From Peristeroidobacter soli (GTDB lineage Bacteria; Pseudomonadota; Gammaproteobacteria; Steroidobacterales; Steroidobacteraceae), in assembly GCF_004138485.1 (NCBI RefSeq), contig NZ_RYEV01000009.1, forward strand, positions 186,001 to 250,000: DNA of 64,000 nt. The letters run 5' to 3'. Within the stretch, counting starts at the first letter, position 1, and every line of letters starts with the position of its first letter. Below, piece after piece: positions 1 through 51,938 of the stretch. The notes under the pieces are model-generated. The model saw only the letters and a list, made by a program, of their open reading frames with translations. It made no database searches and had not been told where the DNA came from. A program made the translations under genes and the position numbers.

Positions 1-466
1 CGCCGGCCGCCGAGCCGACCAGATGAAAGCGGTCGATTTTCAGGTGTTCGATCAGCTCGTGAAGATCGCCGGACCCCGTGCCTGCCTGGTTGGGATTCAT
101 CTCCGAGGCAGCTACCTCCGAGCGAAAATAGCCGCGTCTCGAATAACCAATCACACGATAGCCCGCGGCAACCAGCGCCGGCTGCTGATACTCCCAGATT
201 GCGCCGTGACCACTCGCCGGATGAAGAAGCACGACCGGCTCTGCGTCTCCACCGGTGTCCCAATACCAAAGCCGCGCGCCACCGGGCAGGTTCGCGATAC
301 CTTCTGTGACTCGTGCCTGCACAGGCGGCGAACTCCAACTCGTCTGAGCCGCCAGCACGCGCACCTGGGCATCTGTTGAGGCCGCCCGTGCACTGACCAG
401 CGCTGCTCCGCTGGCGATCAGCGCGCCCTGCAGCAGCGCTCTGCGATTCCTGTTCTGAATGCTCAC
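1..466 (-). CDS. Exported alpha/beta-hydrolase-fold protein lacking the nucleophile Ser (3' part outside window)
   Basis: Reads on the minus strand from a GTG at 466 behind an AGAGGG ribosome site and runs off the left edge, giving the first 155 residues. The N-terminus has a twin-arginine-like signal (NRRALLQGAL, then a hydrophobic run ending SARA). The core shows the strand and oxyanion region VVLLHPASGHG and the elbow VGSAAG, where the family expects GxSxG. The nucleophile position (residue 153) is Ala. This matches three other hydrolase-fold proteins at 38.3, 48.2 and 49.1 kb, also serine-less. A DUF3237 gene lies directly upstream, as a DUF3237 fragment does beside the 36-39 kb module, so a further module may continue to the left. 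Fold assignment is firm; a hydrolase activity is doubtful. Confidence 0.8.
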   Translation of the reverse strand, partial: MSIQNRNRRALLQGALIASGAALVSARAASTDAQVRVLAAQTSWSSPPVQARVTEGIANLPGGARLWYWDTGGDAEPVVLLHPASGHGAIWEYQQPALVAAGYRVIGYSRRGYFRSEVAASEMNPNQAGTGSGDLHELIEHLKIDRFHLVGSAAG

Positions 467-33387: not shown

Positions 33388-33407
33388 TGCACCCGACGCG
33401 AGGACAA

Positions 33408-35413: not shown

Positions 35414-35423
35414 CCCGACGACC

Positions 35424-35885: not shown

Positions 35886-36549
35886 AACCCGCCTGCTGCG
35901 CATTCTGCATCTCGCCAGTCCCGCACTGCCGATCGGGGCATTCCATTTTTCCCAGGGTTTGGAGTATGCCGTCGAAGCCGGTTGGGTCACGGATGAGCCT
36001 ACGGCGCTCGACTGGATCGGTGGAGTAGCGACACAGTCGATCGGCACACTGGACCTGCCGGTGCTGATCCGCCTGTATCGCGCTCATCGTGCCGGCGATA
36101 GCGAAACACGACGACGTTGGGGACACTTCCTGATGGCGGCGCGCGAGACACGAGAACTACGCGCCGAGGATCGTCACATGGGGTCCGCGCTCGCTCGGGT
36201 TTTACAACAGCTCGAGATCGACGGTCCGCCGCTGGATGCGCAAGGCGAGCAGCCCGGGTACGCCGAAATATTCGCTATCGCCTGCGTTCACTGGAGCATT
36301 ACCGAAGCAGAGGCCGCGCAGGCGTACGCCTGGACATGGGCGGAAAATCAAACGCTCGCCGCGGTCAAACTCGTACCGCTCGGGCAAAGCGCCGGTCAGC
36401 GCATCCTGCATTCGTTGGTGCCGCTGCTGGAACAGCTCGCGACGCGGGCGCCCGACATCGCCGACGAGGACATCGGCGCTTGCGTCATCCGCCAAGGACT
36501 GGCCAGCGTGTGGCACGAATCTCAGTATACGCGCCTGTTCAAATCCTGA
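35872..36549 (+). CDS. ureF: Urease accessory protein UreF
   Basis: 225 residues: HLASPALPIGAFHFSQGLEY near the N-terminus, then AARETRELRAEDRHMG and LVPLGQSAGQRILHSLVP. All features of UreF, the GTPase-activating-type partner of UreG. Last gene of the cassette; its stop is about 8 bp from the point where a truncated DUF3237 gene begins on the opposite strand. Confidence 0.96.
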   Translation: MPTDRTRLLRILHLASPALPIGAFHFSQGLEYAVEAGWVTDEPTALDWIGGVATQSIGTLDLPVLIRLYRAHRAGDSETRRRWGHFLMAARETRELRAEDRHMGSALARVLQQLEIDGPPLDAQGEQPGYAEIFAIACVHWSITEAEAAQAYAWTWAENQTLAAVKLVPLGQSAGQRILHSLVPLLEQLATRAPDIADEDIGACVIRQGLASVWHESQYTRLFKS

Positions 36550-36723: not shown

Positions 36724-38313
36724 TCACCTCACCGCCGCGACGATGCGCCGGTGCAGTCGCTCGACGACTTCCAGCGCGGACATGATGGCGCCATCCTGCC
36801 AGCCATGACCCGACACCCCCTCGCCCGCCAGCACGAACCGCCCATCGATGGCCCGCGCATTGGCGTGATGCTTGCGAATCAGATCGGGCGTCCACTGCGC
36901 GTTGCAACCCATCGTATAGGGATTGCGATGCCAGGCGACGGCCATGCCGTTCTGGAACTCCTTGTGATATTGCGGATGAATCTGCGCTCCGTACTCGACC
37001 GCGCGTCGCACGCGCTCGGCGGGCGTCATGCCGGTGAATTCGTAGGTCGGCGGCCCCCGATGCAGTACCGCGCCATACAACAAACCCGGCCCCGGCGTGT
37101 TGAGCCCGCCGCTCGGATAGAAGATCTGGCGAATCGGCAGGTCGGTGATGCTGAAGCCACCGAAAATACCTTCGTCTTCCTCCCAGAAGCGACGCCGGAA
37201 CTGCAACCCGATCTTGGTCTCGGAGCTGTAGGAGATCGCATCGATGGCCGCCTTCATCGGCGCCCCGATACGCAGCTCGAGCTGGCCGAGGATGGACAGC
37301 GGAATCGTGCAGATACACCAGTTCGCGCTCGCCTGCAGTGACGATCCCGGCCGCGAGACGTCTTCGTAAGTCACAGTGACGCGTGACTCGTCCTGAGTCA
37401 TCGACAACACGCGCGCGTTAGTGCGAATCACACCGGGCAGCCGGCTGGCGAACGCCTTGGGAATCATGTCCATGCCGCCGACCGGCTGGAACAACGTCGT
37501 CTGGAACGACGCGAGTCCGGGATGATTCGCCCCCCGCCACATCGCCGCGTCTTCGCCCAGCTGTAGCACGTCCGCGAATTTCAACAGCTGCGAGTACGTG
37601 ATCGAGGCATCCTCGAAGCTGATCGACTCCGGACCGCGCAAGCGACTGCTACTGGCACCAGTCACATAGCGTCCGGAACCATCCAATCCTCCCCAACTCG
37701 CCAACATCGGCTTGAGCAGCGCCAGATGCTCCGGCGCCAGCGGTTGATCCAAGCCGCCTTTGGACAAGGCCGCCGTCATCATCTCAGCGAGATAGCCCTG
37801 AAAATCCGCGGCCACGTGTGCGTAGCGCTGCGGCTTGCCGCCGAGCACGTTGCGCGAGTGAACGTAGCCTGCGTAGTTCAACTGCACGAACGGCTCGAGC
37901 GCCACGCCAAATCGCTTGCAGTAGTCGAGAATGGCCTTGTGCGTATGTGAAATACGCCAGGGACCGGGATTCATATAAACGCCGGGCGCAAACTCGCAGA
38001 TCTGCTTCTCGCCGCCCAGTTCCGTGTAGACATCGCCGCCGCGCAATGTCCACGAGCGACCGCCGATACGATTGTTATATTCGAGCAACTGCACCTGGTA
38101 GCCAGCGTTGCGCAACTCATAAGCCGCGGTCAGGCCGGCAAGGCCTGCGCCCAGCACCAGCACGCTGGTCTTCTTCGGCGCGCCGTCGAGCTTCATCGGT
38201 CCGCGATAAGGCGGAGTCGTCATGCCCGCGCGCACCGCGCCGGTGGGCCCCAGCACGCTGCCCGCCCCGAGCAGCCCGGCGAGTGCCAGCAAATCCCGTC
38301 GTCGAATCGTCAC
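36724..38313 (-). CDS. Tat-exported flavin-containing amine oxidase/dehydrogenase (module 1)
   Basis: 529 residues from a GTG overlapping the upstream stop. Twin-arginine signal TIRRRDLLALAGLLGAG, FAD-binding VLVLGAGLAGLTAAYEL, YNNRIGGRSWTLRGG and C-terminal FAD motif GRFVLAGEGVSGHGWQDGAI. Members of this family oxidise C-N bonds. A cytochrome c gene in the same operon suggests it works as a dehydrogenase passing electrons to cytochrome, as nicotine oxidoreductase NicA2 does with CycN, rather than to O2. Paralogue at 50352. Substrate unknown. Confidence 0.88.
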   Translation of the reverse strand: MTIRRRDLLALAGLLGAGSVLGPTGAVRAGMTTPPYRGPMKLDGAPKKTSVLVLGAGLAGLTAAYELRNAGYQVQLLEYNNRIGGRSWTLRGGDVYTELGGEKQICEFAPGVYMNPGPWRISHTHKAILDYCKRFGVALEPFVQLNYAGYVHSRNVLGGKPQRYAHVAADFQGYLAEMMTAALSKGGLDQPLAPEHLALLKPMLASWGGLDGSGRYVTGASSSRLRGPESISFEDASITYSQLLKFADVLQLGEDAAMWRGANHPGLASFQTTLFQPVGGMDMIPKAFASRLPGVIRTNARVLSMTQDESRVTVTYEDVSRPGSSLQASANWCICTIPLSILGQLELRIGAPMKAAIDAISYSSETKIGLQFRRRFWEEDEGIFGGFSITDLPIRQIFYPSGGLNTPGPGLLYGAVLHRGPPTYEFTGMTPAERVRRAVEYGAQIHPQYHKEFQNGMAVAWHRNPYTMGCNAQWTPDLIRKHHANARAIDGRFVLAGEGVSGHGWQDGAIMSALEVVERLHRRIVAAVR

Positions 38314-39155
38314 TGGAATCCGTGCTCGCGCAAGAACGCCTGCAACAGCGGCACCACCATCTCGGGCGTTTGGAACGGCGCGTCGTGCCCGGACTCGATC
38401 ACCTGATACGTGCCTTTGGGAATGTGAGTGACCAGTTCCTTGACCGACTCCGGTGTCCGGCGGCTGTACAACGTGGTGGCGACCATCAGCACCGGACACT
38501 GCAACTTGGGAAACACGTCGGCGAACGGCGTGGAATAGATCAACCGCTCGGTGAAGTGCTTGCCGTTCTCGTCGTTCGAAGCGTCCATGGCGAGATACTT
38601 CGCCCAGCGCTGCTCGTTACCGCGCAGTTGCACCGGATAGGTGATCGCGTAGGGATCGGCAGGCGGCGCGGGTCGCGGCTCATGCACCGGTCGCGGCGGC
38701 CGGCCGACCAATTGTGCCGAGGGACTGAAGTTGACGATGCCTTTCACCCGCTGCGGAAACTGTGCGGCGAACTGCATCTGCACCGAACCGCCGAACGCCG
38801 TGCCGATCATCATCACCGGCTTGTCGATCTTCAATGCGTCGAGCAGTGCGCGCAGATCGTCGACTTCATCCTGCATCGTGATCGGCTCTTGCAACCGTTG
38901 TGACAGGCCGATGCCGCGCAAATCGTACGTCAGGATTGTGCGCCGCTCGCTCGCGAGCAGCGGCAGGATCTCGTCCCAGTATTCCAGCGGTTTGCCGGTG
39001 CTGGGCAAGAGCACCAGCACATCCGGCCCATTGCCGGTCAGCTCATAACGCAGCGAGACATCGTTGACGCGCACCCAGGCAGGCGCGGCCGACACAGTCG
39101 ACAGACTGGCGAGCAGCAGCCCGAAGATCAGAACAGGCGACCTGAAACATTTCAT
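38310..39155 (-). CDS. Exported alpha/beta-hydrolase-fold protein lacking Ser nucleophile (module 1)
   Basis: 281 residues with a signal peptide (VLIFGLLLASLSTVSAA). Fold landmarks are LVLLPSTGKPLEYWDEILP and TYDLRGIGLS. The elbow reads IGTAFGGS, so the nucleophile position (residue 120) is Ala. The usual acid motif after PVLMVA lacks Asp. The His of the triad is present (ESGHDAPF, His257). It overlaps the cytochrome gene by 4 bp and the flavin oxidase gene by 4 bp. A non-hydrolytic or binding role is likely. Confidence 0.85.
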   Translation of the reverse strand: MKCFRSPVLIFGLLLASLSTVSAAPAWVRVNDVSLRYELTGNGPDVLVLLPSTGKPLEYWDEILPLLASERRTILTYDLRGIGLSQRLQEPITMQDEVDDLRALLDALKIDKPVMMIGTAFGGSVQMQFAAQFPQRVKGIVNFSPSAQLVGRPPRPVHEPRPAPPADPYAITYPVQLRGNEQRWAKYLAMDASNDENGKHFTERLIYSTPFADVFPKLQCPVLMVATTLYSRRTPESVKELVTHIPKGTYQVIESGHDAPFQTPEMVVPLLQAFLREHGFQ

Positions 39156-39574
39156 CTTGATTGTTCTCCATCGGTTGCGGGACGCACGGCGTTGACCTCG
39201 GCGGCGCTCACGGTGTCGGTGTAGCGATTGCCGAAGTTGCCGCGCACGTAGTTGACGACGGCGGCGATCTGTTCGTCGTCCAGCACGTCGCCGAAGGCGG
39301 GCATCGCCTTCAAGCCGTTGACGACGATCACGGCCGGATACAGCGGCGACTGCAAGTTGGGATTGGACGCCAGCGCCGGATAAGCCGCGGCACCACGCGC
39401 GCCCTTCGCATCGGCCATGTGACATCCCTGGCAAATAGCGCGATACAGATCGCCGCCGTTCCTGGCGATGAACTTGCTTGGATGGGCGAGCACAGGATCG
39501 GCGGGCGCCTCCTCGGCGCCCGCGATCTGTGCGGCCAGGGCGGCGATCGCCGCCACCCACGCCGCCCGACTCAC
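39152..39574 (-). CDS. Small periplasmic cytochrome c (module 1)
   Basis: 140 residues with a signal peptide (WVAAIAALAAQIAGAEE). One haem-c site CQGCH (Cys48-His52) and an axial Met91 in GLKAMPAFGDVL, followed by the class I helix QIAAVVNYVRGNFGN. Overlaps both neighbours by 4 bp. Most likely electron acceptor for the flavin enzyme. Its homologue at 49099 is fused to a hydrolase-fold domain. Confidence 0.93.
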   Translation of the reverse strand: MSRAAWVAAIAALAAQIAGAEEAPADPVLAHPSKFIARNGGDLYRAICQGCHMADAKGARGAAAYPALASNPNLQSPLYPAVIVVNGLKAMPAFGDVLDDEQIAAVVNYVRGNFGNRYTDTVSAAEVNAVRPATDGEQSR

Positions 39575-42372
39575 GGCTTCACCCGGAAACCCACCATGAA
39601 GGTGCGCCCGATCACATCATGAAACGTGGCGTTGTACGGGTTGCCTTCGCTCGACGTCGGATCGAACGGCGGCGCCTTGTCGAACAGGTTCTGCACGTTC
39701 GCATACAACTGCACCTCGGCCGTATCGCGCCACGCCGGCAGGTCGTAACCCAGCGCGAGCGAAACATACGTCGCGCTCTTCACACTGTTGTCGTCGATGT
39801 CCTGAGCCGTGTACATCACGTTCTTCTTGCCATTGCCGACATAGCGCACGCCAAGCGTCGCCGACAACTCGTTGAGACTGTATGTGAAGTAACCGCTCCA
39901 CTTCAGTTTCGGTCCGCCGTAGGGGGTCGATGCGGTGCCCATGTCGCCGGCGCGATTGGTGCTGCTGCTGCCGTTATCCACGATGATGTCGGGCTGGTAG
40001 GTGAGGAAGTAGTTCACATCGAGACGACCGGCCAGCGCGCTCGACAGACTGTCCAGCTCGAAGCCATAGCCCAGCTCGGTGTCGAACCCCTTCACCTTCA
40101 ACCCCGCCAGGTTCAGCAGCGGAGCACGCACCACGGCGGACTGTTCCGAGAGCCGGGTGATCAGCGCACAGAAGCTCGCCGCGCCGGCATAACAGAAGTC
40201 CACCACCTGCTGCGTACTGACCGAGGAAATCACATCCTCGATGTCGATGTCGTAATAGTCCACGGCGAACTTCAAGCCCGGCACTGCCTGCGGCGTGAGC
40301 ACGATGCCCGCCGTGAACGTCTCGGCCTTCTCAGGCGTGAGCGCCGCGTTGCCGGAGGTCTCGGTGCGCGTAGTCAGATTCGCGCCGTTCTCCGGGTTGA
40401 TGACGTTGACGTTGCTGGAAGACACCGACGTGTACAGCTCGCTCAAGTTCGGAGCGCGGATGTCGCGTGAGAATGACGTGCGCAGACGAACGCTGCTGTT
40501 CAATGCATCGGTCAGGCCCACTTTCCAAGTTGTGACGCTGCCGCTGTTTCGGTAGTTCGTCTCGCGAACGGCGGCGTTCAACTCGAGCGACTCCGCGAAC
40601 GGCTTGTCTTTCAGCAGCGGCAGCGCGGTCTCTATATAACCCTCCCGCACGGTGTCCGAACCGGACAGCGGCTGAGCGTTACCGAAAATATAGCCACGGG
40701 CCAATGCAATCGGATCGTTCTGAATCAGCTCCGCATCGTCCTCGCGATATTCCACGCCCGCGGCAACCGACGCCTCACCGGCCCAGGTCGAGAAAGGTTC
40801 ACCGCTCACGTTGGCGGCCACGACCCAGCGATCGTAGATGGTCTCCGTGCGCTGCGAGCCCGAGTAGTACTCGAATGCTTCGCGGGTGACCGACCCGAGA
40901 CCGAACAAATTGACCGGCACGCAGCCGTCGGTGGGATTGGTAAGCGTGGAGCGGCAGACGACGTTGCCGTTGCCATCCAGCACTGCATCCACCGAGCGAG
41001 CGAAGTTCGCGTTGATACGATACCCCGTGCCTCGCGTCTTCACGGCCGAGCGCGCGAACTGCGCGTAACCGTCCCAGGTCCAGCCGCCAGTGCGGCCATT
41101 CACGCCCAGCGTATAGATCTGATTGCGAGTGTAGTTGTCGATCTCGGTGCTGGTGCCGTAACCGTTGCCGTAAATATCTTCGCGTGCGAAGCGATTGAGG
41201 CCGAAGCTGGTGAGCCCCAACGTGTCCATGCGCGACTGCAGCTCATCGGGAATGAAAGGATTGCCGCTGCGGATCGTGATCGGCGCGTTGTCGCCAGCCG
41301 ACGGCCCCCATGTGTTGACGTGCACGTAACCATAGTTCGCCTGACCGAACACTTCGATGTCCGGCGTGAGCTCGAAGCCGAGTCGCGCTTGGGTGACGAC
41401 GCGCTCGACCGGCACCGATAGACGGCGGGCGACGCCATCGCCGAGACCGTAGCCTTCGCCGCCGGACATCGCGCCCGAGCCGTTGGGGCTGCCGTACACG
41501 AACGGGCGCGAGCTGCCATCAGAATTGAACGTCGTGCCCGCGAGCGGGCCGGTGCTGATGATGCCGGCCGCGACCAGTACATTTCGATGCACGTGAGGCG
41601 CGGTGAGTGTCCGGGGCAGACCGTTCGTGCCATAGCCAGTGTTGCTCACCAGCCCCCACTCTTCACGCCCCCAGTCACGCGTATACATGTTGCCGACGCC
41701 TTCGTTGTCGACCCATTCCGAGCCGATCGTGAAGTGCGCGCGATCATCGGCGAAGCTCGTGCCGTAGAGCGCCGCGACGCGCTTCTCGCGATTGTCGCCG
41801 TAGTTGCTCATGCCATAGCTCACATCGGTCTCGAAGCCATCGTAACGTTTCTTCGTGACCATGTTGACCACGCCCGCGACCGCATCGGAGCCCCACTGCG
41901 CCGACGCACCGCCCGTCACGACATCGACACGGTCGATGAGAATCTGCGGCACGGTGTTGAGATCCGTCTGGCCGGTGAGCGCACTCGGCGGCAAGCGCTG
42001 ACCGTCTTGCAGGACCAGCGTGCGTTGCGAGCCGAGATTGCGCAGGTTTGCGTAACGCCGACCGGCGGCCCCGCCCAAAGTGTTGGTGGACGCATTCTGG
42101 TCGGATTGAAAGGATGGCATCCGACTCAACGCGTCGCCGATATTGGTCGCGCCGCTCTTGATCAACAGCTCACCGTCGAGCACCGTCGTCGGCGTCGGTG
42201 CGGTGAATCCTTCGCGCTGGATGCGCGAAGCGGTAACGCTCACTTCCTCCATCGGCGAGCCGGTCATGGAAACGTTGTCGGCCGCCGCCACTGGCCCCGT
42301 CACCGTCCCGCCAAAAACTGCCAGCGCACTCGCTGCGCCCCATGTGGAAACTTTGTTGGTTGTACGAATCAT
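39571..42372 (-). CDS. TonB-dependent receptor (module 1)
   Basis: 933 residues from ATG 42372, behind GGGAGGG. Signal then EEVSVTASRIQREGF (TonB-box region), plug with NLRNLGSQRTLVLQDGQRLP and DRVDVVTGGASAQWGSDAV, and a 22-strand barrel. It ends GFRVKP, not in the usual aromatic residue. Closely similar along its length to the receptor at 51941, so both probably take up related ligands. Opens the module with a 4-bp overlap into the cytochrome gene. Confidence 0.92.
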   Translation of the reverse strand: MIRTTNKVSTWGAASALAVFGGTVTGPVAAADNVSMTGSPMEEVSVTASRIQREGFTAPTPTTVLDGELLIKSGATNIGDALSRMPSFQSDQNASTNTLGGAAGRRYANLRNLGSQRTLVLQDGQRLPPSALTGQTDLNTVPQILIDRVDVVTGGASAQWGSDAVAGVVNMVTKKRYDGFETDVSYGMSNYGDNREKRVAALYGTSFADDRAHFTIGSEWVDNEGVGNMYTRDWGREEWGLVSNTGYGTNGLPRTLTAPHVHRNVLVAAGIISTGPLAGTTFNSDGSSRPFVYGSPNGSGAMSGGEGYGLGDGVARRLSVPVERVVTQARLGFELTPDIEVFGQANYGYVHVNTWGPSAGDNAPITIRSGNPFIPDELQSRMDTLGLTSFGLNRFAREDIYGNGYGTSTEIDNYTRNQIYTLGVNGRTGGWTWDGYAQFARSAVKTRGTGYRINANFARSVDAVLDGNGNVVCRSTLTNPTDGCVPVNLFGLGSVTREAFEYYSGSQRTETIYDRWVVAANVSGEPFSTWAGEASVAAGVEYREDDAELIQNDPIALARGYIFGNAQPLSGSDTVREGYIETALPLLKDKPFAESLELNAAVRETNYRNSGSVTTWKVGLTDALNSSVRLRTSFSRDIRAPNLSELYTSVSSSNVNVINPENGANLTTRTETSGNAALTPEKAETFTAGIVLTPQAVPGLKFAVDYYDIDIEDVISSVSTQQVVDFCYAGAASFCALITRLSEQSAVVRAPLLNLAGLKVKGFDTELGYGFELDSLSSALAGRLDVNYFLTYQPDIIVDNGSSSTNRAGDMGTASTPYGGPKLKWSGYFTYSLNELSATLGVRYVGNGKKNVMYTAQDIDDNSVKSATYVSLALGYDLPAWRDTAEVQLYANVQNLFDKAPPFDPTSSEGNPYNATFHDVIGRTFMVGFRVKP

Positions 42373-42647
42373 CGTCGCCGCCCTCCCGTTCCGTTCGTTG
42401 TCAGTTCTTGTATTCCTTTGGTATGCCATACGAACACCACGAATGGAATAGGCATCGGCGTCGAAGACGAAAAAATCTCGAATGCGCGGGGCGCGGAAGA
42501 AATAACGGGTCGCGGCAACCGCGGCACCGCTCACCGAGATGGAAACAAATGGAGCAGACAGGTGCGCGACACGCGCATTCATAGTGCGCGAGTCGCGAAG
42601 AATGGCGTCGCGAGCTACGACGACGGCATAGCTGAAGCGTGGACGAA
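42373..42647. promoter_or_regulatory. Promoter region with TGGTATGCCA operator (42419-42428)
   Basis: The gap between the receptor start and the RidA stop. The palindrome at 42419-42428 lies 47 bp upstream of the receptor start and matches three other promoter sites (54866, 55907, 61340). Outer TATTCC and GGAATA repeats surround it at about 42411-42450. No gene is seen in the remainder. Confidence 0.55.
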
Positions 42648-43040
42648 TCAACCCGCCGGCGGCGAGTACGCGATCACTTCGATCTCGACTTTGCAATCCG
42701 ACATCAGGTCGGCGCGCACGCAGGAGCGAGCCGGCAACTCTTCCCCGAAATACTCGGCATAGACCCGATTGAAACTCCAGAAGTCACGCACGTCGTCGAT
42801 CCACACTGTCGCCTTCACGACGTCGCGCAAGCCCAGTCCGGTCGACTCCAGGATGGCGCGCACATTCTCGATGGTGCGACGAGTCTGCTCGACGATGCCG
42901 CCTGCCACCACTTCTCCGTCCGGACCGATGCCGATCTGTCCGGAGACGAACACGAAATCGCCGGCACGCACCGCTTTCGCAAAAGGCAGGCGGGTGCCGC
43001 CGCCGCCCGTGCCGCCCAGACCGTAGCGCTGGATAGTCAT
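42648..43040 (-). CDS. RidA/YjgF-family protein
   Basis: 130 residues: PFAKAVRAGDFVFVSGQIGIG, QTRRTIENVRAILESTGLGL, VVKATVWIDDVRDFWSFNRV and a C-terminal ARSCVRADLMSDCKVEIEVIA. The Arg of RSCVRA is the conserved carboxylate-binding residue. Members deaminate enamines/imines or act in catabolic ring-opening steps. Last gene of the long minus-strand operon, 29 bp after the permease gene. Confidence 0.9.
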   Translation of the reverse strand: MTIQRYGLGGTGGGGTRLPFAKAVRAGDFVFVSGQIGIGPDGEVVAGGIVEQTRRTIENVRAILESTGLGLRDVVKATVWIDDVRDFWSFNRVYAEYFGEELPARSCVRADLMSDCKVEIEVIAYSPPAG

Positions 43041-43069
43041 GCAATCGACCTCATCGAATATTGGAACCG

Positions 43070-43879
43070 TCAGTGTTCGGCGTTGCGCGCCGAGACATGC
43101 CATGGAATGGCGCGACGTTCGATCCATTCCGTCGCCCAGAAGAACAGTAACCCGAGTACCGACAACAGCAGGATGGCGGAGAACTGACGGGTGACATCGA
43201 AAGTCGACGACGCCGACAGGATCACGTAACCCAAGCCCGCATCCGCACCGACGAACTCCGCGACCACGGCGCCGATCACCGCGAGCACCGAAGCCATCTT
43301 CACGCCGGCCAGAATGCTCGGCAGTGCCTGCGGCAGCCGGAAGCGCCAGAAAATCTGCGCCGTGGATGCGCCCATGGAACGCGCCAGATAGATCATCTGC
43401 GGCGTCGCCGAGCGCAACCCCACCACCGAGTTGATGACCACCGGGAAGAACGCAACCGTGATGATGATCGCCACTTTCGGCGTCATGCCGAAACCGAACC
43501 ACGCCAGCATCACCGGCGCGATGGCCACCTTCGGCACCACCTGCGAGCCGACGATCAGTGGATACAACGCACGATCCAGCACGCGCGAGAACGTAATCAG
43601 GATGGCCACCGGTAGCCCCACTGCGATGCTCGCGAGGAAGCCAATCAGCACTTCGGCCGCCGTCATGCCGATGTGCGGCATGAAGTAGCGCCAGTTCTCC
43701 ATCAGATCCTTGGCGATCGCCGTCGGCGCCGGCAATAGATAAGCGCCGATCTCGAACACGACACACGCCAGCTGCCAGGCCGAGACCAGCAACACCAGTG
43801 CGATCCATGCATAAGGAACTTCGAATCGCTTACGCGGCTTGGGCGTCATCGCGCCGAGATCCTGAATCGTCGTGCTCAT
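43070..43879 (-). CDS. ABC importer permease, SsuC/TauC type
   Basis: 269 residues, start at 43879 behind GGGGAG. Six predicted membrane segments and the EAA loop IYLARSMGASTAQIFWRFRLP. Partner genes are split: binding protein at 47265 and ATPase at 61389 on the other side of module 2. Such importers carry sulfonates, nitrate, pyrimidines or related small anions. Confidence 0.9.
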   Translation of the reverse strand: MSTTIQDLGAMTPKPRKRFEVPYAWIALVLLVSAWQLACVVFEIGAYLLPAPTAIAKDLMENWRYFMPHIGMTAAEVLIGFLASIAVGLPVAILITFSRVLDRALYPLIVGSQVVPKVAIAPVMLAWFGFGMTPKVAIIITVAFFPVVINSVVGLRSATPQMIYLARSMGASTAQIFWRFRLPQALPSILAGVKMASVLAVIGAVVAEFVGADAGLGYVILSASSTFDVTRQFSAILLLSVLGLLFFWATEWIERRAIPWHVSARNAEH

Positions 43880-43909
43880 GTCGTCTCCCCTGCAGGCAGC
43901 GCCCACAGC

Positions 43910-44872
43910 TCACAAATCGAGAACCAGCCTGGGTCCCAGGCTCCCCGAACAACAAATCATCATTTTTTTATTGGACGCCCGTTCGCGCTCCGACAGCACT
44001 TGATCGCGATGATCGGGCTCGCCTTCCAGCACCGCGGTCTCGCAGGTCCCGCAAACGCCGGACATGCAGGAGCGCGGCACTTCCAAGCCGCGCGCCAGCA
44101 ACGTCTCGAGAATCGTCTTGTCGTCCGGAACGAACAACGTCGTGCCCGAACGCGCCAGCATCACCTCGAATCCGCCGCGGGCCGGTGCCTGTGCAGCGCT
44201 GAAATATTCCACATGAACCTGCGATGCCGGCACCGACGCCGTCGCCGCCTCGAACGCCGCAAGCATGCCCGCAGGTCCACAACAGTAGAAATGTGCCTGC
44301 GGCCCATGCGACGCGACGATCGCCTGCAGATCGAGCATGCGCGCGCCGGGCTCCTGATCGAACACGGTGACGAGCCGCCCAGGGGCGCGGGACTCCAACT
44401 GGCGCAACGGTTCCAGAAACGCCGCTCGTTCGCGCGTGCGCGTCGCGTAGTACAACTGCCAGCGGCGCCCGAGTTGCTCGAGCCTTTGCACCATGCACCA
44501 CAGTGGCGTGATGCCAATGCCGCCTGCGATGAGCACGCTCAGCGGCGCGTCCTCGAACAGTTCGAACGAATTGCTCGGCGTGGTCACCTCAATGATGTCG
44601 CCGACCTTCAAGCCGTCAAACATGAATGCCGATCCGCCGCGGCTGGTAGCCGAGCGCTGCACGCCGATGCGATAGCGATACGACTCCAGCCCCTGATCCA
44701 GCAGCGAATAGCTACGCTCGATGCCGCCCGGCAGGAGCACATCGAGATGAGCTCCCGCCGTGTAACGCGGCAGATCGCCCCCTCCGGGCGACCGCAATTC
44801 GAAGGAACGAACGTCCTCGGCCTCGTAGGTCACCGAGTGAACGCGAACCGGCAACAGATCGGTGCGACTCAT
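43910..44872 (-). CDS. PDR/VanB-type ferredoxin reductase for the Rieske oxygenase
   Basis: 320 residues: FMN/NAD domain (RSYSLLDQGLE, IAGGIGITPLWCMVQRL) then a C-terminal plant-type [2Fe-2S] domain with CMSGVCGTCETAVLEG and a final Cys pair in MMICCSGSLGP. Transfers electrons from NAD(P)H to the oxygenase encoded 10 bp upstream. Domain order matches phthalate dioxygenase reductase and VanB. Confidence 0.93.
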   Translation of the reverse strand: MSRTDLLPVRVHSVTYEAEDVRSFELRSPGGGDLPRYTAGAHLDVLLPGGIERSYSLLDQGLESYRYRIGVQRSATSRGGSAFMFDGLKVGDIIEVTTPSNSFELFEDAPLSVLIAGGIGITPLWCMVQRLEQLGRRWQLYYATRTRERAAFLEPLRQLESRAPGRLVTVFDQEPGARMLDLQAIVASHGPQAHFYCCGPAGMLAAFEAATASVPASQVHVEYFSAAQAPARGGFEVMLARSGTTLFVPDDKTILETLLARGLEVPRSCMSGVCGTCETAVLEGEPDHRDQVLSERERASNKKMMICCSGSLGPRLVLDL

Positions 44873-44882
44873 CCCTCGCGCA

Positions 44883-46193
44883 TCAACCTGTGGTCACCGG
44901 CGCACGCACGGCGCGCTTCATCGCTTCTTCATAGCCTTCCAGCCAATCGGTGTTCTCCGGCACCACCATGTCGCCGCCGCGCGCAGTTCGACTGATGGCC
45001 GGGTTGTCCAACACTTCGGGCAACTTGCCAGTGCTGGCAAACTCGCGCGCGGCCGCTAGCATCGCCCGACGAGTCATCATCACCATGCGGTCGCTGGAGG
45101 CCAGGTGTTCGAGGGAACGATCGACGATCGGCCCCATGCTTTCGATCATCGCCTGGTCCTGCAACGGGATGCCGCTCACGCCGATGAAGGTGGACTTCAA
45201 TGTTTCTTCGGTGCGGCCGTAGTCGTTGCCCCGATTCTGGGTCGGCCGCCAGCGGCCCATCCAGTCGTTGGTGCGCGGCAGGTACTCCAGCGGACGCGCC
45301 AGCGTCGGCACCACGGTGCCGTCCTTGTAGCGCATCGCCGTGTCCTTGCCTTCGCCACGGAACAGATCGATGTTGAAGATCATCGTGTTCTCGTCGTCGA
45401 TGGGCACCCAGGCATTGACCGACACGTTGTGTTCGATCATGTCGCTCGGGTACGTGACCCAGAACGGAAAAATGAAACAGGCGAAGCGATGATGCTCTTC
45501 GCCCGGCCCGGCCGGCCGCTGCGCCGAATACATCGTGCCGAAGGGCATGTCGGCGACATTGATCTTGGGCGCCTTGTTGATGACGGTGTAGCGCTGCGGA
45601 TCCTTCTCCTCGATCGCTTCTCCATCGATCAGACCGGCGTGCAGGAAGCCCAGGTGCGACGTATCGATATCGCCTTCGAGTGCCTGCAGCCAGTTGCAAT
45701 CGCGTTGCGTGAGCGCGATACCGTCGCCATGCATGGGACCGAACGTCGCTTCGATATCCGGCAGCGGCGGCGGCACCGGACGCTTGCCCATATAGACGAA
45801 TACCATTCCGCCCCGCTCGGCCGTCTTGTACGCCATGGCTTTGGTGCCGGCGGGGAAACGGTTCTTGTCCGGCAGATTCGGCTGGTCGAGACAGTTGCCT
45901 TCGACGTCGAACTTCCAGCCGTGATAGCCGCAGCGAATGCCGCCCTGCTCGTTGCGCCCTAACGCGAGCGAGGCGCAGCGATGCGGACAGCGATGATCGA
46001 AAATGCCGACGCGGCCCGCGGTATCGCGAAAGGCCACCAGCTTCTCGCCGAGCAGCATCAGCCGCATCGGCATGCCGTCGGGCGCCAGCTCGTTCGACTT
46101 GCAGGCGGGAATCCAGAACTCCCGCATGAAATTCCCCATCACGGTGCCACGGCCCACTCGCGTGAGCGCTTCGTTGTCAGCTGTTGTAAGCAT
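44883..46193 (-). CDS. Rieske non-haem iron oxygenase, phthalate 4,5-dioxygenase-like
   Basis: 436 residues. Rieske ligands Cys69-x-His71 (CPHRCASL) and Cys88/His91 (CGYHGW); mononuclear iron site in LEGDIDTSHLGFLHAG. N-terminal TTADNEALTRVGRGTVMG is typical of the phthalate-dioxygenase/O- and N-demethylase group. Could hydroxylate an aromatic ring or remove an N- or O-alkyl group. With nitrilase, RidA and hydantoinase neighbours, an N-heterocyclic substrate is plausible. Confidence 0.92.
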   Translation of the reverse strand: MLTTADNEALTRVGRGTVMGNFMREFWIPACKSNELAPDGMPMRLMLLGEKLVAFRDTAGRVGIFDHRCPHRCASLALGRNEQGGIRCGYHGWKFDVEGNCLDQPNLPDKNRFPAGTKAMAYKTAERGGMVFVYMGKRPVPPPLPDIEATFGPMHGDGIALTQRDCNWLQALEGDIDTSHLGFLHAGLIDGEAIEEKDPQRYTVINKAPKINVADMPFGTMYSAQRPAGPGEEHHRFACFIFPFWVTYPSDMIEHNVSVNAWVPIDDENTMIFNIDLFRGEGKDTAMRYKDGTVVPTLARPLEYLPRTNDWMGRWRPTQNRGNDYGRTEETLKSTFIGVSGIPLQDQAMIESMGPIVDRSLEHLASSDRMVMMTRRAMLAAAREFASTGKLPEVLDNPAISRTARGGDMVVPENTDWLEGYEEAMKRAVRAPVTTG

Positions 46194-46212
46194 GATCGAT
46201 CTCCAAGACGAA

Positions 46213-47268
46213 TCAGGGTGTGGCCGGGCGACGGACGACGCCGGTGGTGAGCAATGTCTGTAGCGCTGCCGCCGATGTTTCTTGTGTCTGCGCGGAATTG
46301 GTCATCGGCTGCGCGGCAAAGGCATTCGGCGGATAGCAGGTCACATCCCGCAGCAGCGGGCGATACATCTCCCAACGGGCGCGCAGCAGAGCATTGCCCA
46401 GTCCCAAATCGTTGCGCGCGCGGCGTTGCGCCTCGACATCGATCAGCGAACTCACCGTGAATGTTTCATCCGCATCCTGTCGATAGGCGACAGTCTCGCC
46501 TCGAAAGTCGACGATTCTCGAACGTCCTCCCGGCACCTTGCCGTCCCACGAGAAGCCGATCGGCCCGGCGACGTTCGCGCTGATCACATACATCATGTTC
46601 TCGGCGGCACGTGCGGTCTTCGCCGCCTCCTGGCCGGCGGACATCTCATCGTTGGTTGGATGAAGCAGCACTTCCGCCCCTCGCAACATGAATGCGCGCG
46701 ACACTTCGGGCACGGCAATTTCCCCGCAAGCGATCACCGCCAGCCGTCCCAGCTCGGTATCGACCACCGGGAATGTTCCCTCGACGCCGTACTCCGCGAA
46801 GTAATCGTCCATGAAGTCATGCGGCGACGGCCACAGCGCGGTGTTGATGCGCCGATAGCGCAGGATCACCTCGCCGCGCGGATCGATCAGGAAACACGAG
46901 TTGAAGAAGCGCCCTGGCCAGCGCACATCGCGCTCGAACAGATTGCCGGCGATATAAATGCGATAACGCTCGGCGAGCCGCTGCAAGGGCGCGGTGGCCC
47001 GTCCTGGAATCGAGTCGCACGCCTTTTCGATCCATTCCTGCACCGTCGCCCGGTGCGGCGGACCTTGAAACGCAAACTCCGGCAGCACGACCAGGCGCGG
47101 TGGATGCTGAGATTCGCAAGCTTCGGTGACGAGTTTCACCGCACGCTGAACATTGGCATCGATGATGCTCCTGGCGGCGGTGGGCGAGTCTGCCCTGGCT
47201 GCGAGCTGCGAGGGCATCTGGATACACGTGGCGCGCCACGGTGCGATAGGTTGAGTTGAGGACATCAT
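46213..47268 (-). CDS. Nitrilase-superfamily amidase, Arg in place of catalytic Lys
   Basis: 351 residues of the carbon-nitrogen hydrolase fold. Glu64 (LPEFAFQG) and Cys181 (VIACGEIAVPE) of the Glu-Lys-Cys triad are present. The Lys position reads RYRRIN (Arg140) and the paralogue at 55958 has the same change. Candidate reactions are amide or N-carbamoyl hydrolysis. Overlaps the ABC binding-protein gene by 4 bp. Confidence 0.85.
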   Translation of the reverse strand: MMSSTQPIAPWRATCIQMPSQLAARADSPTAARSIIDANVQRAVKLVTEACESQHPPRLVVLPEFAFQGPPHRATVQEWIEKACDSIPGRATAPLQRLAERYRIYIAGNLFERDVRWPGRFFNSCFLIDPRGEVILRYRRINTALWPSPHDFMDDYFAEYGVEGTFPVVDTELGRLAVIACGEIAVPEVSRAFMLRGAEVLLHPTNDEMSAGQEAAKTARAAENMMYVISANVAGPIGFSWDGKVPGGRSRIVDFRGETVAYRQDADETFTVSSLIDVEAQRRARNDLGLGNALLRARWEMYRPLLRDVTCYPPNAFAAQPMTNSAQTQETSAAALQTLLTTGVVRRPATP

Positions 47269-48245
47269 TCGACGAACTGACCGGTGTAGACCTTATCCGC
47301 GGTGATACGAGCAGGCAGCGAGTAATAGTCACGCATGACCTGGAGCATTTCTTCCACGTCCTCGCGTGCCAGCCAACCAAACGGCTTGCCGGCGCTGTGC
47401 TTGGTGTGCAGGTACGGCGGCAGGCCCTGCATTTCGGCCGCGAGCACTTCGCGGCTCAATTCCGGCCTCGCCCGCCGCACGGCATCCACGCCGAGCTGCG
47501 GATCCTTCGCAACGTCGGCGGCTCCTCGCTGAGTTGCGGCGATGAACTTCTTCAGCACGTCGGGTTTGGACTCGAGCGTCTTGCGCGTGACGAACATCGA
47601 CGTGCCCAGCGTGTTGAGGCCGGCGTCGGCAAACCTCATCGGTTCACCGATCGGCTTCACGCGCGAGATCTTCAAACCATCCTGCAATGCCCAGGCGCAG
47701 ATGAAATCGACATCGCCGTTCACCAGCGAGGTGATGGCCGCGCTGTGATTGAGCGTGACACGGCGAATCTTGCGCATGTCGAGTTTGTTTCGTGCGGCGA
47801 ACGCAGTGAACAGGCGCTGCGCCTCATCGCCTGCGACCGCGCCCCAACGCTTGCCCTCGAGATCCTTGGGCGTGCGAATTCCGGAGGACTGCAACGTGAT
47901 CACTGCCTCGGGCGCGCGCTGAATCACGCCGGCAATCGCGACAACTGGAACGTCGCGAGCGGCGGCCAGCGCCAGCGCCGAAATGTTAGCAAGCCCGATG
48001 GTCTCGTTGCCCGAGCCGACGACCTGCAGCGTCGAGATGCTGCCCTGGCCGTTGTTGATCTGCACGTCGAGCCCCTGCTCGGCGTAGTAGCCTTTGTCCT
48101 TGGCCACGAACAGCGCCGCGTGATAGGCGCCAGGCAGCCAGTCGAGTCGCACGGACACTTTCTCAGCCGCCACGGCCGGCAGCGCGAGCAGCGCCAGGGC
48201 CGCCCATAGCCAGGCGCGCAGCGTCGCCCGTATCGTTCGACTCAT
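47265..48245 (-). CDS. ABC substrate-binding protein, NMT1/SsuA/ThiY-like
   Basis: 326 residues with a signal peptide (LWAALALLALPAVAAEK). Opening VSVRLDWLPGAYHAALFVAKD and GYYAEQGLDVQI is typical of NMT1/THI5-like binders for pyrimidines and related small molecules. Start at 48245 overlaps the hydrolase-fold gene stop by 4 bp. Feeds the permease at 43070 and probably the ATPase at 61389. Confidence 0.9.
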   Translation of the reverse strand: MSRTIRATLRAWLWAALALLALPAVAAEKVSVRLDWLPGAYHAALFVAKDKGYYAEQGLDVQINNGQGSISTLQVVGSGNETIGLANISALALAAARDVPVVAIAGVIQRAPEAVITLQSSGIRTPKDLEGKRWGAVAGDEAQRLFTAFAARNKLDMRKIRRVTLNHSAAITSLVNGDVDFICAWALQDGLKISRVKPIGEPMRFADAGLNTLGTSMFVTRKTLESKPDVLKKFIAATQRGAADVAKDPQLGVDAVRRARPELSREVLAAEMQGLPPYLHTKHSAGKPFGWLAREDVEEMLQVMRDYYSLPARITADKVYTGQFVE

Positions 48246-49102
48246 AATCCCAACTCCGTCATGAAGGCCTGAAACAGCGGCGTTACCCGTTCGGGCGACT
48301 GAAAAGACGCCACGTGCCCGGTATCGAGGACGGCGAAGCGGCCCTTCGGCAACGCCTCCGCCAGCGCTTTGACTGAATCCACCGGCCGCACGAACTGCGT
48401 CGTGGCGATCAGCAACACCGGGCACTGGACCTTGGGCAGCACGTCGGCGAACGCCGTCGTGTTGATCAATTTCTCGATCAGCATTTCGCTGTCGGGATCG
48501 ACCGATGCGTGCATGCCCTGATACTTCACCCAGCGCTCTTCGTTGGCGCGAAACGGCTCCGGATATGTCACTTTCAGTGCGCGCTCGTCGGCCGCTCTCG
48601 CACCGGCGGGATCCACTGCCGGATCGATCCTCGGCCGCGCCGGACGCGCTTCGAGCAACGCCGACGGACTAGTGACCGCAATGCCCCTCACCCGCTCTGG
48701 ATACTGCGCGGCAAATTGCAAAGCCACCGAACCGCCGAACGCGCCGCTCAGGAACACCACCGGCTGCCGCAGATCGAGCGCGTCCATCAGTGCGCGCAAG
48801 TCGTCCACCTGATCCTGCATCGTGGTGGGCTTGCGGAATTTCTCCGACAGGCCGACGCCGCGCGGGTCATAGCGCAGCACTCGACGATTGGGTGTCGACA
48901 ACGAGGGCAGGATCTCGTCCCAGATCTCGAGCGGCTTACCCGACTCCTGCATGAGAACCACGGTGTCGGCACCGCTGCCGGACAATTCGTAGCGCAAGCT
49001 CACATGATTGACCGTCACCCACTCGGGGCTCGCCGCTGCGAGACCCGCTGACCCTAACAGCCACAATGCCGCCAGCACGCGTATCGCTCGTACCAAATTC
49101 AT
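48242..49102 (-). CDS. Exported alpha/beta-hydrolase-fold protein lacking Ser nucleophile (module 2)
   Basis: 286 residues, signal peptide LAALWLLGSAGLAAA. Close to the module 1 protein at 38310: TVVLMQESGKPLEIWDEILP, RYDPRGVGLSEKF, TMQDQVDDLRALMDALDL. Elbow SGAFGGSV gives Ala at the nucleophile position (residue 121). His263 (DTGHVASF) remains. 4-bp overlaps with both neighbours show tight coupling with the cytochrome fusion. Confidence 0.85.
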   Translation of the reverse strand: MNLVRAIRVLAALWLLGSAGLAAASPEWVTVNHVSLRYELSGSGADTVVLMQESGKPLEIWDEILPSLSTPNRRVLRYDPRGVGLSEKFRKPTTMQDQVDDLRALMDALDLRQPVVFLSGAFGGSVALQFAAQYPERVRGIAVTSPSALLEARPARPRIDPAVDPAGARAADERALKVTYPEPFRANEERWVKYQGMHASVDPDSEMLIEKLINTTAFADVLPKVQCPVLLIATTQFVRPVDSVKALAEALPKGRFAVLDTGHVASFQSPERVTPLFQAFMTELGL

Positions 49103-50355
49103 CGATCCAGCTCCGCAAGAAACTGCCGCACCAGCGGTTCGACCAGCTCGGGCGATTGCACACCGGCGTAGTGTCCGGTGTCCAGTTCGACGAAGCGCGC
49201 ATTCGGAATCGCGTTCGCCATCTCACGCACCACTGAGACCGGTCGCACGAAGCGCTTCCCAGCGGCCATGATGACAGGACAACCGACCTTACCGAATGTT
49301 TCCTTGAACCCCACCGAGTACAAGGCACGCATCGTCAGGACCGCGCTGGTCGGATCGGTGGAGTATGCAGTGCCGAGGAAGCGCGCATAACGCTTTTCAT
49401 CGGTCCGCAGACTCGGCGGATAGATCACATCGAAGCTCTTCTCGCGCGCTTTATGCGCAGCATCCGGATCGTCCGCGGCGATCGGGTCGGAGGATTCCGC
49501 TAGTGTCGCCGGCGCCGCGCCGGGCAACAGAGGATCGGGGAACTTCGCCAGTTGCTTGGGTTGTTGTGTGAGATTGCCGGTCGGCCCGAGCGCGACCACG
49601 CCGGCAGCGCGCTTCGGATAGGTCGCGGCGAATTGCAAGGCAATCGTCGCGCCGAAGGTATCGCCGACCAGCACCACGGGCTCGCTCAACCCCAGTTTAT
49701 CGAGCAACGCGGCGAGATCCTCGACCCACACCTGCATACCGACGGGCTCGCGAATCTTGGTCGACAATCCCGCGCCCCGCTGATCGAAGCGCAGGATGGT
49801 CCGGTCGCGCCTCGCGAGCGCCGGCACCAATTCGTCCCAATGCTCCAACGCCGAACCCAGGGAATGCAGCAACACGACGGTGCTACGACCTGTGCCCGTG
49901 CGCTGATAACGCAGGAATGTGTGCGGAGAGACTTCGAGCCACTTCGCGGACATTGGCGTCGGCGCCGGGAGCATCGCGCGCACATCCTCGGCCGTGACTT
50001 TGTCCGTGAACGAGTTGCCGAAACTCGTGCGCACATAGTTGACGACAGCGGCGACCTGCGCTTCGTTCAACAGACTGCCGAAGTCGGGCATGCCCCGCTG
50101 ACCGTTCAACACGACATGGATCGGATAGCCGGCGGCCGCCAGCTTGGGATTGCCGGCCAGCGCCGGATACGTGCCCGCCCCCGTGGCGCCCTTGCCGTCC
50201 TGCATGTGACAGCCCTGACACGCCATCTGATAGAGCTGGGCGCCATCGGTGCCCACGAATCGCCTTGGATCGGCGAAGGAAGGTTCGGCGGCGTGCGCGA
50301 CTTGCAGTCCGAACGCGACCAGGCTCAGTAGACTCATCAACCGGCGCGCCATCAT
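49099..50355 (-). CDS. Cytochrome c / alpha/beta-hydrolase-fold fusion protein (module 2)
   Basis: 418 residues. Signal peptide (LLSLVAFGLQVAHAA), a class I cytochrome c domain at about 30-125 with CQGCH (Cys46-His50) and axial Met89 in QRGMPDFG, then a complete hydrolase fold at about 138-418. At the elbow VGDTFGAT the nucleophile is Thr233, not Ser; the triad His395 (DTGHYAGV) is kept. The joined parts correspond to two adjacent genes of module 1 (39152 and 38310). Overlaps the flavin oxidase gene by 4 bp. I know of no described function for this fusion. Confidence 0.88.
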   Translation of the reverse strand: MMARRLMSLLSLVAFGLQVAHAAEPSFADPRRFVGTDGAQLYQMACQGCHMQDGKGATGAGTYPALAGNPKLAAAGYPIHVVLNGQRGMPDFGSLLNEAQVAAVVNYVRTSFGNSFTDKVTAEDVRAMLPAPTPMSAKWLEVSPHTFLRYQRTGTGRSTVVLLHSLGSALEHWDELVPALARRDRTILRFDQRGAGLSTKIREPVGMQVWVEDLAALLDKLGLSEPVVLVGDTFGATIALQFAATYPKRAAGVVALGPTGNLTQQPKQLAKFPDPLLPGAAPATLAESSDPIAADDPDAAHKAREKSFDVIYPPSLRTDEKRYARFLGTAYSTDPTSAVLTMRALYSVGFKETFGKVGCPVIMAAGKRFVRPVSVVREMANAIPNARFVELDTGHYAGVQSPELVEPLVRQFLAELDR

Positions 50356-51938
50356 GCAGCCACCACACGCTTGTGAATGCGCTCGACCACATCGAGCGCC
50401 GACAAAATCGCCCCTTCCTGCCAGCCACCGACCGCGGCAGCGACCGACTCGCCTGCCAGCACGATGCGTCCATCGATCGCGCGTGTGTTCTGATAGTGCT
50501 CGACTCGCTTCTCAGGCGTCCAACGCGCGGTGCAGCCCAACGAGAACGGCTGACGATGCCAGGCGACCGAGACGCCGTTCTGGAATTCGGCTGGATACTG
50601 CGGATGAATCTGCGCGCCGTACTCGACGGCTTTCTTCACCCGCTCGGCGGCGGACATGCCGGCGAACTCATATGAATATGCGCCGAACATGAACGCGCCA
50701 TACAACACGCCCGGCCCCGCTTTGTTGAAGCCATGCGTCGGATACGAGATGGTCCGAATCGGCAACTGCGTGTGGCTGAAACCACCGTAGATGCCGTCAT
50801 CCTGTTCCCAGAAACGCCGTTTGAACTGCAGCGCGACCTTGACGGCCGTCGCGAACGGAATCGCATTGATGCCCGCCAGCATGCCGGGACTGACTTGCAA
50901 GTCCATCTGGCTCAAGATCGGAAACGGCACAGTGCAGATACACCACTGCGCCTTGGCCTGCTGCGGCCGGCCGGGGCGCGCAGTGTCTTCATAGGTGACG
51001 GTCACACCGCTGTCGTTCTGGTGAATGGCAGTGACCTTGGTGTTGAAACGAATCGCACCAGGGACCTGCTTCGCCATCGCCCTGGCGATCATGTCCATGC
51101 CGCCGACCGGATGGAACAGCGGATTCTGCAGATCGCGGTAGCCGCTGTGATTGGAGATCGCCCAAATGTCGGAGTCGAGGCAAAGCTTCAGCACTTCCCG
51201 AAGCGGCAGCGGCGCAGAGGCCGTTCGCGTGCCGGCGGAGAGATCCATCGAATCGTAGCCGCGCATCTTCGCGCTCTCCGCGCCCAGCGTGTAACGCGAG
51301 TTCGAATCGAGGCCTGCCCAGATCTTCAAGACCTCGCGCAGCATGTCCGCATCCGCAGCCGTGAGCTCTTCATCGAGCGCGTGCTGCTGCGAAGCCTTCG
51401 ACAACAACTCCGCAACGTGTCCCTGCAGATCGGGAATCACATGCGCCAGCCGCTGCGGCTTGCCGCCGAACGCCGTGCGGGAATGCAGATAGCCGTTGTA
51501 GTTCACTTCCACGAACGGCTGAATCTCCACCCCGAGCCGGCGGCAATAGTCGAGGATCGCGCGGTGATGATGAGCGAACCGCCACGGCCCCGGATTCATG
51601 AACTCGCCTGGTGCGAACTCACAAGTCTGCGTCTCGCCGCCCAGCTCGGTGAACCGATCGCCGCCGCGAATCGTCCAGGAACGCCCGCCGACGCGAGCGT
51701 TGTACTCCAGGATCTGCACCTTGTAGCCGGCCTTGCGCAGCTCCATCGCTGCGGTCAGGCCGGCCAGTCCTGCGCCGATGATCAGCACGCTCGTGCCCTT
51801 GCCTGCATCGCCGAGCTCGAGCGGCCCGGCGTAAGGCGACTCGGCGGCGTGCCCGAGCGTGGTCATCGCGTGGTACATGGCGGCGCCGCCACTGGCGGCG
51901 CCGATCATCGAGAGCAGTTTGCGACGGGTGATCGACAT
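50352..51938 (-). CDS. Tat-exported flavin-containing amine oxidase/dehydrogenase (module 2)
   Basis: 528 residues from ATG 51938, two bases after the receptor stop. Twin-arginine signal ITRRKLLSMIGAASGG, FAD site VLIIGAGLAGLTAAMEL, YNARVGGRSWTIRGG and C-terminal GRIVLAGESVAAAVGGWQ. Similar along its whole length to the module 1 enzyme. Periplasmic and coupled with a cytochrome, so a dehydrogenase role is expected; substrate unknown. Confidence 0.88.
   Translation of the reverse strand: MSITRRKLLSMIGAASGGAAMYHAMTTLGHAAESPYAGPLELGDAGKGTSVLIIGAGLAGLTAAMELRKAGYKVQILEYNARVGGRSWTIRGGDRFTELGGETQTCEFAPGEFMNPGPWRFAHHHRAILDYCRRLGVEIQPFVEVNYNGYLHSRTAFGGKPQRLAHVIPDLQGHVAELLSKASQQHALDEELTAADADMLREVLKIWAGLDSNSRYTLGAESAKMRGYDSMDLSAGTRTASAPLPLREVLKLCLDSDIWAISNHSGYRDLQNPLFHPVGGMDMIARAMAKQVPGAIRFNTKVTAIHQNDSGVTVTYEDTARPGRPQQAKAQWCICTVPFPILSQMDLQVSPGMLAGINAIPFATAVKVALQFKRRFWEQDDGIYGGFSHTQLPIRTISYPTHGFNKAGPGVLYGAFMFGAYSYEFAGMSAAERVKKAVEYGAQIHPQYPAEFQNGVSVAWHRQPFSLGCTARWTPEKRVEHYQNTRAIDGRIVLAGESVAAAVGGWQEGAILSALDVVERIHKRVVAA

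Follow-up and report, generated by a model that had tools for sequence, protein, structure and literature searches.

Nucleophile-less alpha/beta-hydrolase-fold proteins, one of them fused to cytochrome c, in the flavoprotein cassettes of Peristeroidobacter soli

We analyzed a 64,000-nucleotide (nt) stretch of the genome of Peristeroidobacter soli (GCF_004138485.1, contig NZ_RYEV01000009.1, positions 186,001-250,000 of the forward strand; hereafter the window), which codes for four alpha/beta-hydrolase-fold proteins lacking the nucleophilic serine of this fold. The reading frames of the genes, given below in window coordinates, were all verified; export signals of the Sec and twin-arginine (Tat or RR) types were judged by eye throughout.

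38310..39155, minus strand: alpha/beta-hydrolase-fold protein 1, 281 amino acids (aa), Sec-type signal; elbow GTAFG with Ala120 (codon 38796-38798), His257 (38385-38387)
48242..49102, minus strand: alpha/beta-hydrolase-fold protein 2, 286 aa, Sec-type signal; elbow SGAFG with Ala121 (48740-48742), Arg239, His263 (48314-48316)
49099..50355, minus strand: hydrolase-fold protein 3, fused in-frame to cytochrome c, 418 aa, Sec-type signal; CxxCH at residue 46, elbow GDTFG with Thr233 (49657-49659), His395 (49171-49173)
2..466, minus strand: N-terminal part of a hydrolase-fold protein of a second family, running off the window edge; elbow GSAAG (Ala codon 8-10)

We place the start of the 38310 gene at 39155; a longer frame, to 39560, would overlap the neighboring cytochrome gene. 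In the fusion protein encoded at 49099 a PF13442 cytochrome c domain (residues 36-108) is followed by the PF00561 hydrolase fold (residues 159-398). The full 319-aa frame of the truncated gene was recovered from the assembly (contig C8), and its product carries an RR-type signal.

All four proteins exceed the threshold of the Pfam Abhydrolase_1 model, with the trio encoded at 38310, 48242 and 49099 attaining 62.3, 62.7 and 80.2 bits against PF00561 (cut-off 25.8). An AlphaFold model of the 48242 protein, built on 3 sequences (predicted local distance difference test 69.3, predicted template modeling score 0.73), recovered the esterase 4uhc as its first match (E 2.6e-15) and the enol-lactonase 2xua as its sixth; the matches lie at root mean square deviations of 8-10 A, and the model was not used for geometry. 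A profile of the trio places Ala on the Ser of the GxSxG motif in both 2xua and 4uhc. As a previous sequence-only reading of this DNA had claimed, the Ser is replaced in all four proteins, by Ala (38310), Ala (48242), Thr (49099) and Ala (second family), while the triad His is present in each of them and each bears an export signal. A serine acyl-enzyme mechanism is therefore excluded for the Ala proteins. The same reading had the triad Asp missing as a shared feature, which is correct for the trio (ATTQ, ATTL and AGKR after strand 7) and not beyond it: the second-family protein keeps its acid (GDADLYMP), visible once the whole gene is read, as do relatives of the trio in other genomes (see below).

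The base rate in this genome comes from elbow calls by a motif script, 12 of which were inspected by eye. Among its 67 Abhydrolase_1 matches, five rows correspond to the above four proteins and two to second pieces of other frames, leaving 60, among which are 3 below the cut-off. The elbow residue is Ser, Cys or Asp in 57 of these 60, one of the Cys calls (C3:335328) being unsure; it is Gln at C2:312449, His at C3:1472339 and Arg at C3:334346. All four hydrolase-fold proteins of the window thus lack Ser, though three of them represent one lineage. The N-terminal parts of the Gln and His proteins (C2:312449-312742, GYQLG; C3:1472339-1472629, GFHTG) look alike by eye, and these two are possibly a third nucleophile-less family.

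The three window proteins are paralogs, with those encoded at 38310 and 49099 sharing 54% and 43% identity with the 48242 protein. To gather relatives, we searched plasmid records and, by profile, 398 genomes from the phylum and 146 from a single genus; the Ser-bearing ones are the best matches, at most 30 per search, rather than all homologs. In the first reading of 54 rows, where L139 and L172, and likewise L144 and L184, are the same locus counted once, 15 distinct loci fall with the trio: 14 have Ala at the elbow, one (49099) has Thr and none Ser. The triad His and an Arg at the position of Arg239 of the 48242 protein are found in all 15, and the oxyanion loop (HE[LM]xG; QE in 48242) contains a Glu in 13, with Ser in its stead in 38310 and 49099. 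The triad Asp is retained in 12/12 of these loci outside the window, and in 14/14 when two further members are added. In contrast, the 37 other distinct rows have Ser without exception and the clade Arg in no case, and a gap separates the scores of the two sets (at least 297.9 versus at most 172.6 bits).

Plasmid searches matched 99 and then 586 records, of which the elbow was read in nine: three from the first and six from the top of the second. The three best, from Aminobacter MSH1, Massilia putida and Paracoccus MC1862 (32-35% identity), all have Ala. Of the six fresh rows, which had not been used for the profile, those from Pseudomonas luteola and Paraburkholderia score 274.9 and 263.4 bits and both display HE[LM]GG together with the Ala, Asp, Arg and His; the other four score at most 193.0 bits, with Ser in all and the Arg in none. 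The nine therefore divide into five clade members without Ser and four others with it. Overall, 17/17 distinct clade loci lack Ser (16 Ala, 1 Thr) and retain both His and Arg, as against Ser in 41/41 distinct loci of the next-nearest, enol-lactonase-like relatives read, which carry Thr, Ser, Ala or Leu at the clade-Arg position. Hence the replacement is conserved within the clade, a point that the sequence-only reading had asked about, and homologs with the ordinary Ser, which would have spoken against it, occur solely outside the clade.

In phylogenetic analysis the 15 first-read members form one clade (support 89/70; a single clade in 88% of 200 bootstrap trees), within which the window trio groups at 100/100. 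The trio is best understood as exported members of a nucleophile-less proteobacterial clade, which itself split from alpha/beta-hydrolases resembling the 3-oxoadipate enol-lactonase PcaD. PcaD-type models rank first in NCBIfam for the trio, at 110.1, 92.2 and 91.9 bits, well below the 255.85-bit cut-off of TIGR02427. The likeness to PcaD (TIGR02427, 2xua) is one of common fold with the His in place; in contrast to its Ser-Asp-His triad, the trio has Ala, Ala and Thr for the Ser and no Asp, the Arg stands where the Ser relatives have other residues, and an export signal is visible by eye.

The clade looks rare. Judged by the gap in scores, a member is present in at least 3 of the 397 other genomes in the phylum search, where at most 6 candidates per genome were scored so that the counts are lower bounds, and in at least 4 of 146 in the one-genus search. 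A first contig scan queried with the trio found no relative, and under strict thresholds neither 59 other related genomes (E 1e-20) nor 368 other genomes from the class (E 1e-40) yielded a member. Of 245 other genomes of the order, 12 have weak matches (E 1e-13), all with Ser. At 80% coverage, the cytochrome-hydrolase fusion has no match among the plasmid records, and in a limited search, covering part of the literature, we recognized no publication on the serine-less clade or on such a fusion.

The fourth protein does not belong to this clade. It shares 22% identity with the 48242 protein over 245 columns and falls in a separate clade of 7 rows supported at 100/100; accordingly, we reject the suggestion that the four are paralogs in favor of two unrelated families. 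Across 8 rows, the elbow of the second family is Ala in 6 (one partial) and Gly in 2, never Ser, and the Asp and His are kept in all 7 rows readable there. With two unrelated serine-less families, the sequences indicate that the nucleophile was lost at least twice. The idea of selection for a non-hydrolytic role is partly supported, insofar as the loss is inherited in all 17 clade loci with His and Arg kept, and has to be abandoned as regards one shared loss. The two families occur near each other elsewhere: in three genomes of one genus two first-clade copies and one second-family copy lie within about 23 kb (L168-L169 in G803, L200-L201 in G1090, and the same spacing in G1058); in P. soli the first-clade genes and the second-family gene are about 38-50 kb apart. 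A DUF3237 gene (window 553-1044) adjoins the second-family gene. Glutathione S-transferase-like genes lie beside Gly-elbow second-family members and one first-clade member (L198 5978-6595, L199 7841-8518, L197 8412-9101), and the window itself has two such genes (7523, 26755).

We then examined the gene neighborhoods of the trio, which are distributed over two cassettes of an operon:

36724..38313, minus strand: flavin amine/L-amino-acid dehydrogenase-like protein of cassette 1, RR signal; start inferred from a 4-base overlap
39152..39574, minus strand: free-standing cytochrome c of cassette 1, with a 4-base overlap with the hydrolase-fold gene
39571..42696, minus strand: TonB-dependent receptor-like gene of cassette 1, named by sequence look; longest frame, start unsure
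42648..43040, minus strand: RidA (Rid family), TIGR00004 above cut-off, no visible signal peptide; end of the operon
43070..48245, minus strand: five genes between the cassettes, namely ABC permease (43070), flavin/2Fe-2S reductase (43910), Rieske oxygenase (44883), carbon-nitrogen hydrolase (46213) and NMT1-type binding protein (47265)
50352..51938, minus strand: flavin amine/L-amino-acid dehydrogenase-like protein of cassette 2, RR signal
51941..54802, minus strand: TonB-dependent receptor-like gene of cassette 2, named by sequence look; longest frame

In cassette 1 the hydrolase-fold gene sits between the cytochrome and flavoprotein genes, joined to both by 4-base overlaps (cytochrome c 39574-39152, hydrolase fold 39155-38310, flavoprotein 38313-36724). 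Cassette 2 shows the same 4-base overlaps from the flavoprotein (51938-50352) through the fusion (50355-49099) and the hydrolase fold (49102-48242) to the binding protein (48245-47265). The two flavoproteins are 55% identical; the best solved relative of the 50352 protein is the Rhodococcus opacus L-amino acid oxidase 2jae (E 8.9e-77), and what we take to be the substrate-carboxylate Arg of that enzyme aligns with an Arg in the 50352 protein. The flanks comprise, on one side (31629-36549), a urease alpha subunit (33710) with neighbors that by look resemble further urease genes and, on the other (55994-60925), a carbon-nitrogen hydrolase (55994), an Asp/Glu/hydantoin racemase (58774) and a hydantoinase/dihydropyrimidinase above cut-off (59450). 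The region looks like a nitrogen-compound catabolic island, and the urease, hydantoinase and racemase genes would fit an amino-acid-like nitrogen compound.

A Tat signal with an adjacent cytochrome c gene is reported to mark flavoprotein dehydrogenases such as NicA2 and Pnao (PMC12224317). Both cassettes have this arrangement (RR signals at 51938 and 38313, cytochromes at 49099 and 39152), with the difference that the fusion reported in that paper joins flavoprotein to cytochrome and the one in the window joins cytochrome to hydrolase fold. Similarly, the lao-cccA-ridA cluster of Gluconacetobacter diazotrophicus combines an L-amino-acid-oxidase-like flavoprotein, a cytochrome c and a third gene (PMC5053998). 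There the third gene is RidA, of unrelated fold; the window has three hydrolase-fold proteins instead, one of them cytochrome-fused, plus TonB receptor-like genes, so that the comparison with RidA extends to gene place and proposed role only.

A scan with the flavoprotein pair gave 156 relatives, and the following counts cover the best 80 loci, which include near relatives and some of which end at contig ends. A cytochrome c gene lies within 900 bases of the flavoprotein gene in 75/80 and the imine deaminase RidA within 2.5 kb in 40/80; a single locus (L053) has a hydrolase-fold match, a weak one, at up to 3 kb. In the 35 loci with a cytochrome and no RidA, no family was seen by eye to recur in the next position across distant genera; a short-chain dehydrogenase/reductase gene follows the cytochrome in two (L095, L096), and in three Acetobacter loci the cytochrome was overlooked by the gene caller. 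Of five plasmid records viewed, three (Microvirga, Comamonas, Paracoccus marcusii) have flavoprotein, cytochrome c and RidA, that of Rhizobium gallicum has no RidA, and the unannotated one of Paraburkholderia yielded flavoprotein and cytochrome but not RidA. The P. soli genome itself codes on contig C1, in a row, for a flavoprotein (36%), a cytochrome c-type protein bearing two CxxCH-type motifs, and a RidA whose signal is visible; a fourth flavoprotein lies at C4:1236061. The proteins of the window trio occupy the gene place held by RidA in many other bacteria, with one of them fused to the cytochrome.

This association does not extend to the clade at large. The sequence-only reading had asked whether such proteins always co-occur with flavin oxidase and cytochrome genes; we reject a general association, for in other genomes none of the 12 clade neighborhoods inspected (L044, L045, L046, L167, L168, L169, L170, L197, L200, L201, L259 and L260; flanks of about 4-13 kb) has a flavoprotein, cytochrome or RidA match. 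These come from 10 records, L168/L169 and L200/L201 being two copies of one cluster each; L173 and L188 (G1058) were left out of the count. The recurring neighbors, named in part from record annotation and from Pfam for window relatives, are glutathione S-transferase (L046, L168, L197, L200), metallo-beta-lactamase fold (L044, L167, L197, L259), dimeric alpha-beta barrel (L045, L170, L197, L260), carboxymuconolactone decarboxylase type (L045, L170, L260) and BKACE (L044, L197). No export signal was visible in the eight clade members whose starts were inspected. The export and the redox link are thus special to the window trio.

Judging from the conserved His and Arg, the proteins may act on a ligand that carries a carboxylate; judging from the position of their genes next to those for flavoprotein and cytochrome, this ligand may be an imine or oxo product. 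In light of this, we tentatively propose, at rather less than even confidence, that the cassettes encode a periplasmic module for amino-acid dehydrogenation and that a hydrolase-fold protein without a nucleophile, relying on His and Arg, handles what the flavoenzyme produces, an imine or oxo compound. The trio would have been recruited, in this genome, to a module for L-amino acids or amino-acid-like amines that comprises a TonB receptor, a Tat-exported flavoprotein and cytochrome c as the electron acceptor. Each protein would bind the carboxylated imine or oxo-acid product, with the Arg, presumably within the pocket, holding the carboxylate much as an Arg of RidA binds the substrate carboxylate, and the His and oxyanion-hole amides moving protons and water. 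Imine hydrolysis or a later isomerization might so be promoted without a covalent acyl-enzyme step, in the place that RidA fills in many other bacteria. In its sharpest form, as an exported, cytochrome-coupled 2-imino-acid hydrolase replacing RidA in such a module, we consider the proposal rather unlikely.

Several points weigh against this proposal, which draws on sequence and gene context. RidA is missing near half of the flavoprotein loci, so that the step is not obligatory; a signal-less RidA (42648) lies within the same operon; and the flavin link is known from one genome only. As clade members elsewhere have no visible export signal and other neighbors, the original reaction of the family was probably different. 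With the acid lost in the trio, and the HE[LM]xG Glu in two of its members, the His may be a weak base, and Thr233 of the fusion protein carries a hydroxyl. What is presumably the second carboxylate ligand of 2jae, a Tyr, is Phe or Met in the flavoproteins.

Some of these losses could instead be those of a non-catalytic partner, in which the fold serves the flavoprotein-cytochrome pair as a subunit for docking, for chaperoning or for binding substrate or product. The absence of nucleophile and acid throughout the trio, the disappearance of the clade-loop Glu from two members and the fusion with cytochrome c speak for this, yet the His and Arg persist in all 17 clade loci, trio included, and the Asp in the 14 others, and we regard it as a serious but minority possibility. 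Going further and reading the trio as decaying, functionless relics is very improbable and was rejected: several catalytic positions are gone, but the frames are intact and overlapping, dN/dS (nonsynonymous to synonymous substitution rates, NG86) between trio members is 0.36-0.51, with high dS, and the Ser-less state is retained in distant genomes. The kept His and the clade-specific Arg thus point to a nucleophile-independent role rather than decay.

A role of this sort need not involve imines. An Ala at the elbow has precedent in AqdC, and tomato methylketone synthase 1 is another such case. The cofactor-free 2,4-dioxygenases HOD and AqdC are reported to have a hydrolase fold with a dispensable nucleophile, Ala naturally at the AqdC elbow and a His-Asp pair as the base (PMC10548524). 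The proteins could comparably work on a beta-oxo or ring compound, be it as lyase, decarboxylase, isomerase or cofactor-free oxygenase, their base being the His, joined by the Asp in most clade members. This would match the Ala elbow and His, the Rieske oxygenase in the operon and the clade neighbors elsewhere that resemble ring- and oxo-acid-degrading types. However, the His of the trio has no acid partner, and no dioxygenase-named molecule is among the best 60 of 197 solved relatives for the 48242 protein or the best 60 of 338 for the trio profile; we hold this, too, to be possible and on balance doubtful. That the proteins are still hydrolases, with His activating water directly or Thr233 as the nucleophile of the fusion protein, is improbable: the fold is retained, the 49099 elbow has a Thr and metallo-beta-lactamase-fold genes lie near some members elsewhere, but Ala occupies the elbow in 16 of the 17 clade loci against Ser in every next-nearest locus read.

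The clade described here is recognizable by a clear sequence signature: Ala at the elbow, the kept His, an Arg found without exception in the loop that follows the acid and, in most members, HE[LM]xG. Annotation labels these proteins alpha/beta hydrolase, yet the serine mechanism is closed to those with Ala; the second family adds a separate loss of the nucleophile. Should the imine hydrolase reading be true, the hydrolase fold would have gained a new function, Arg and His standing in for the triad. Through the cytochrome fusion, one branch of the clade is tied to a redox module, and this offers a direct handle for finding its reaction.

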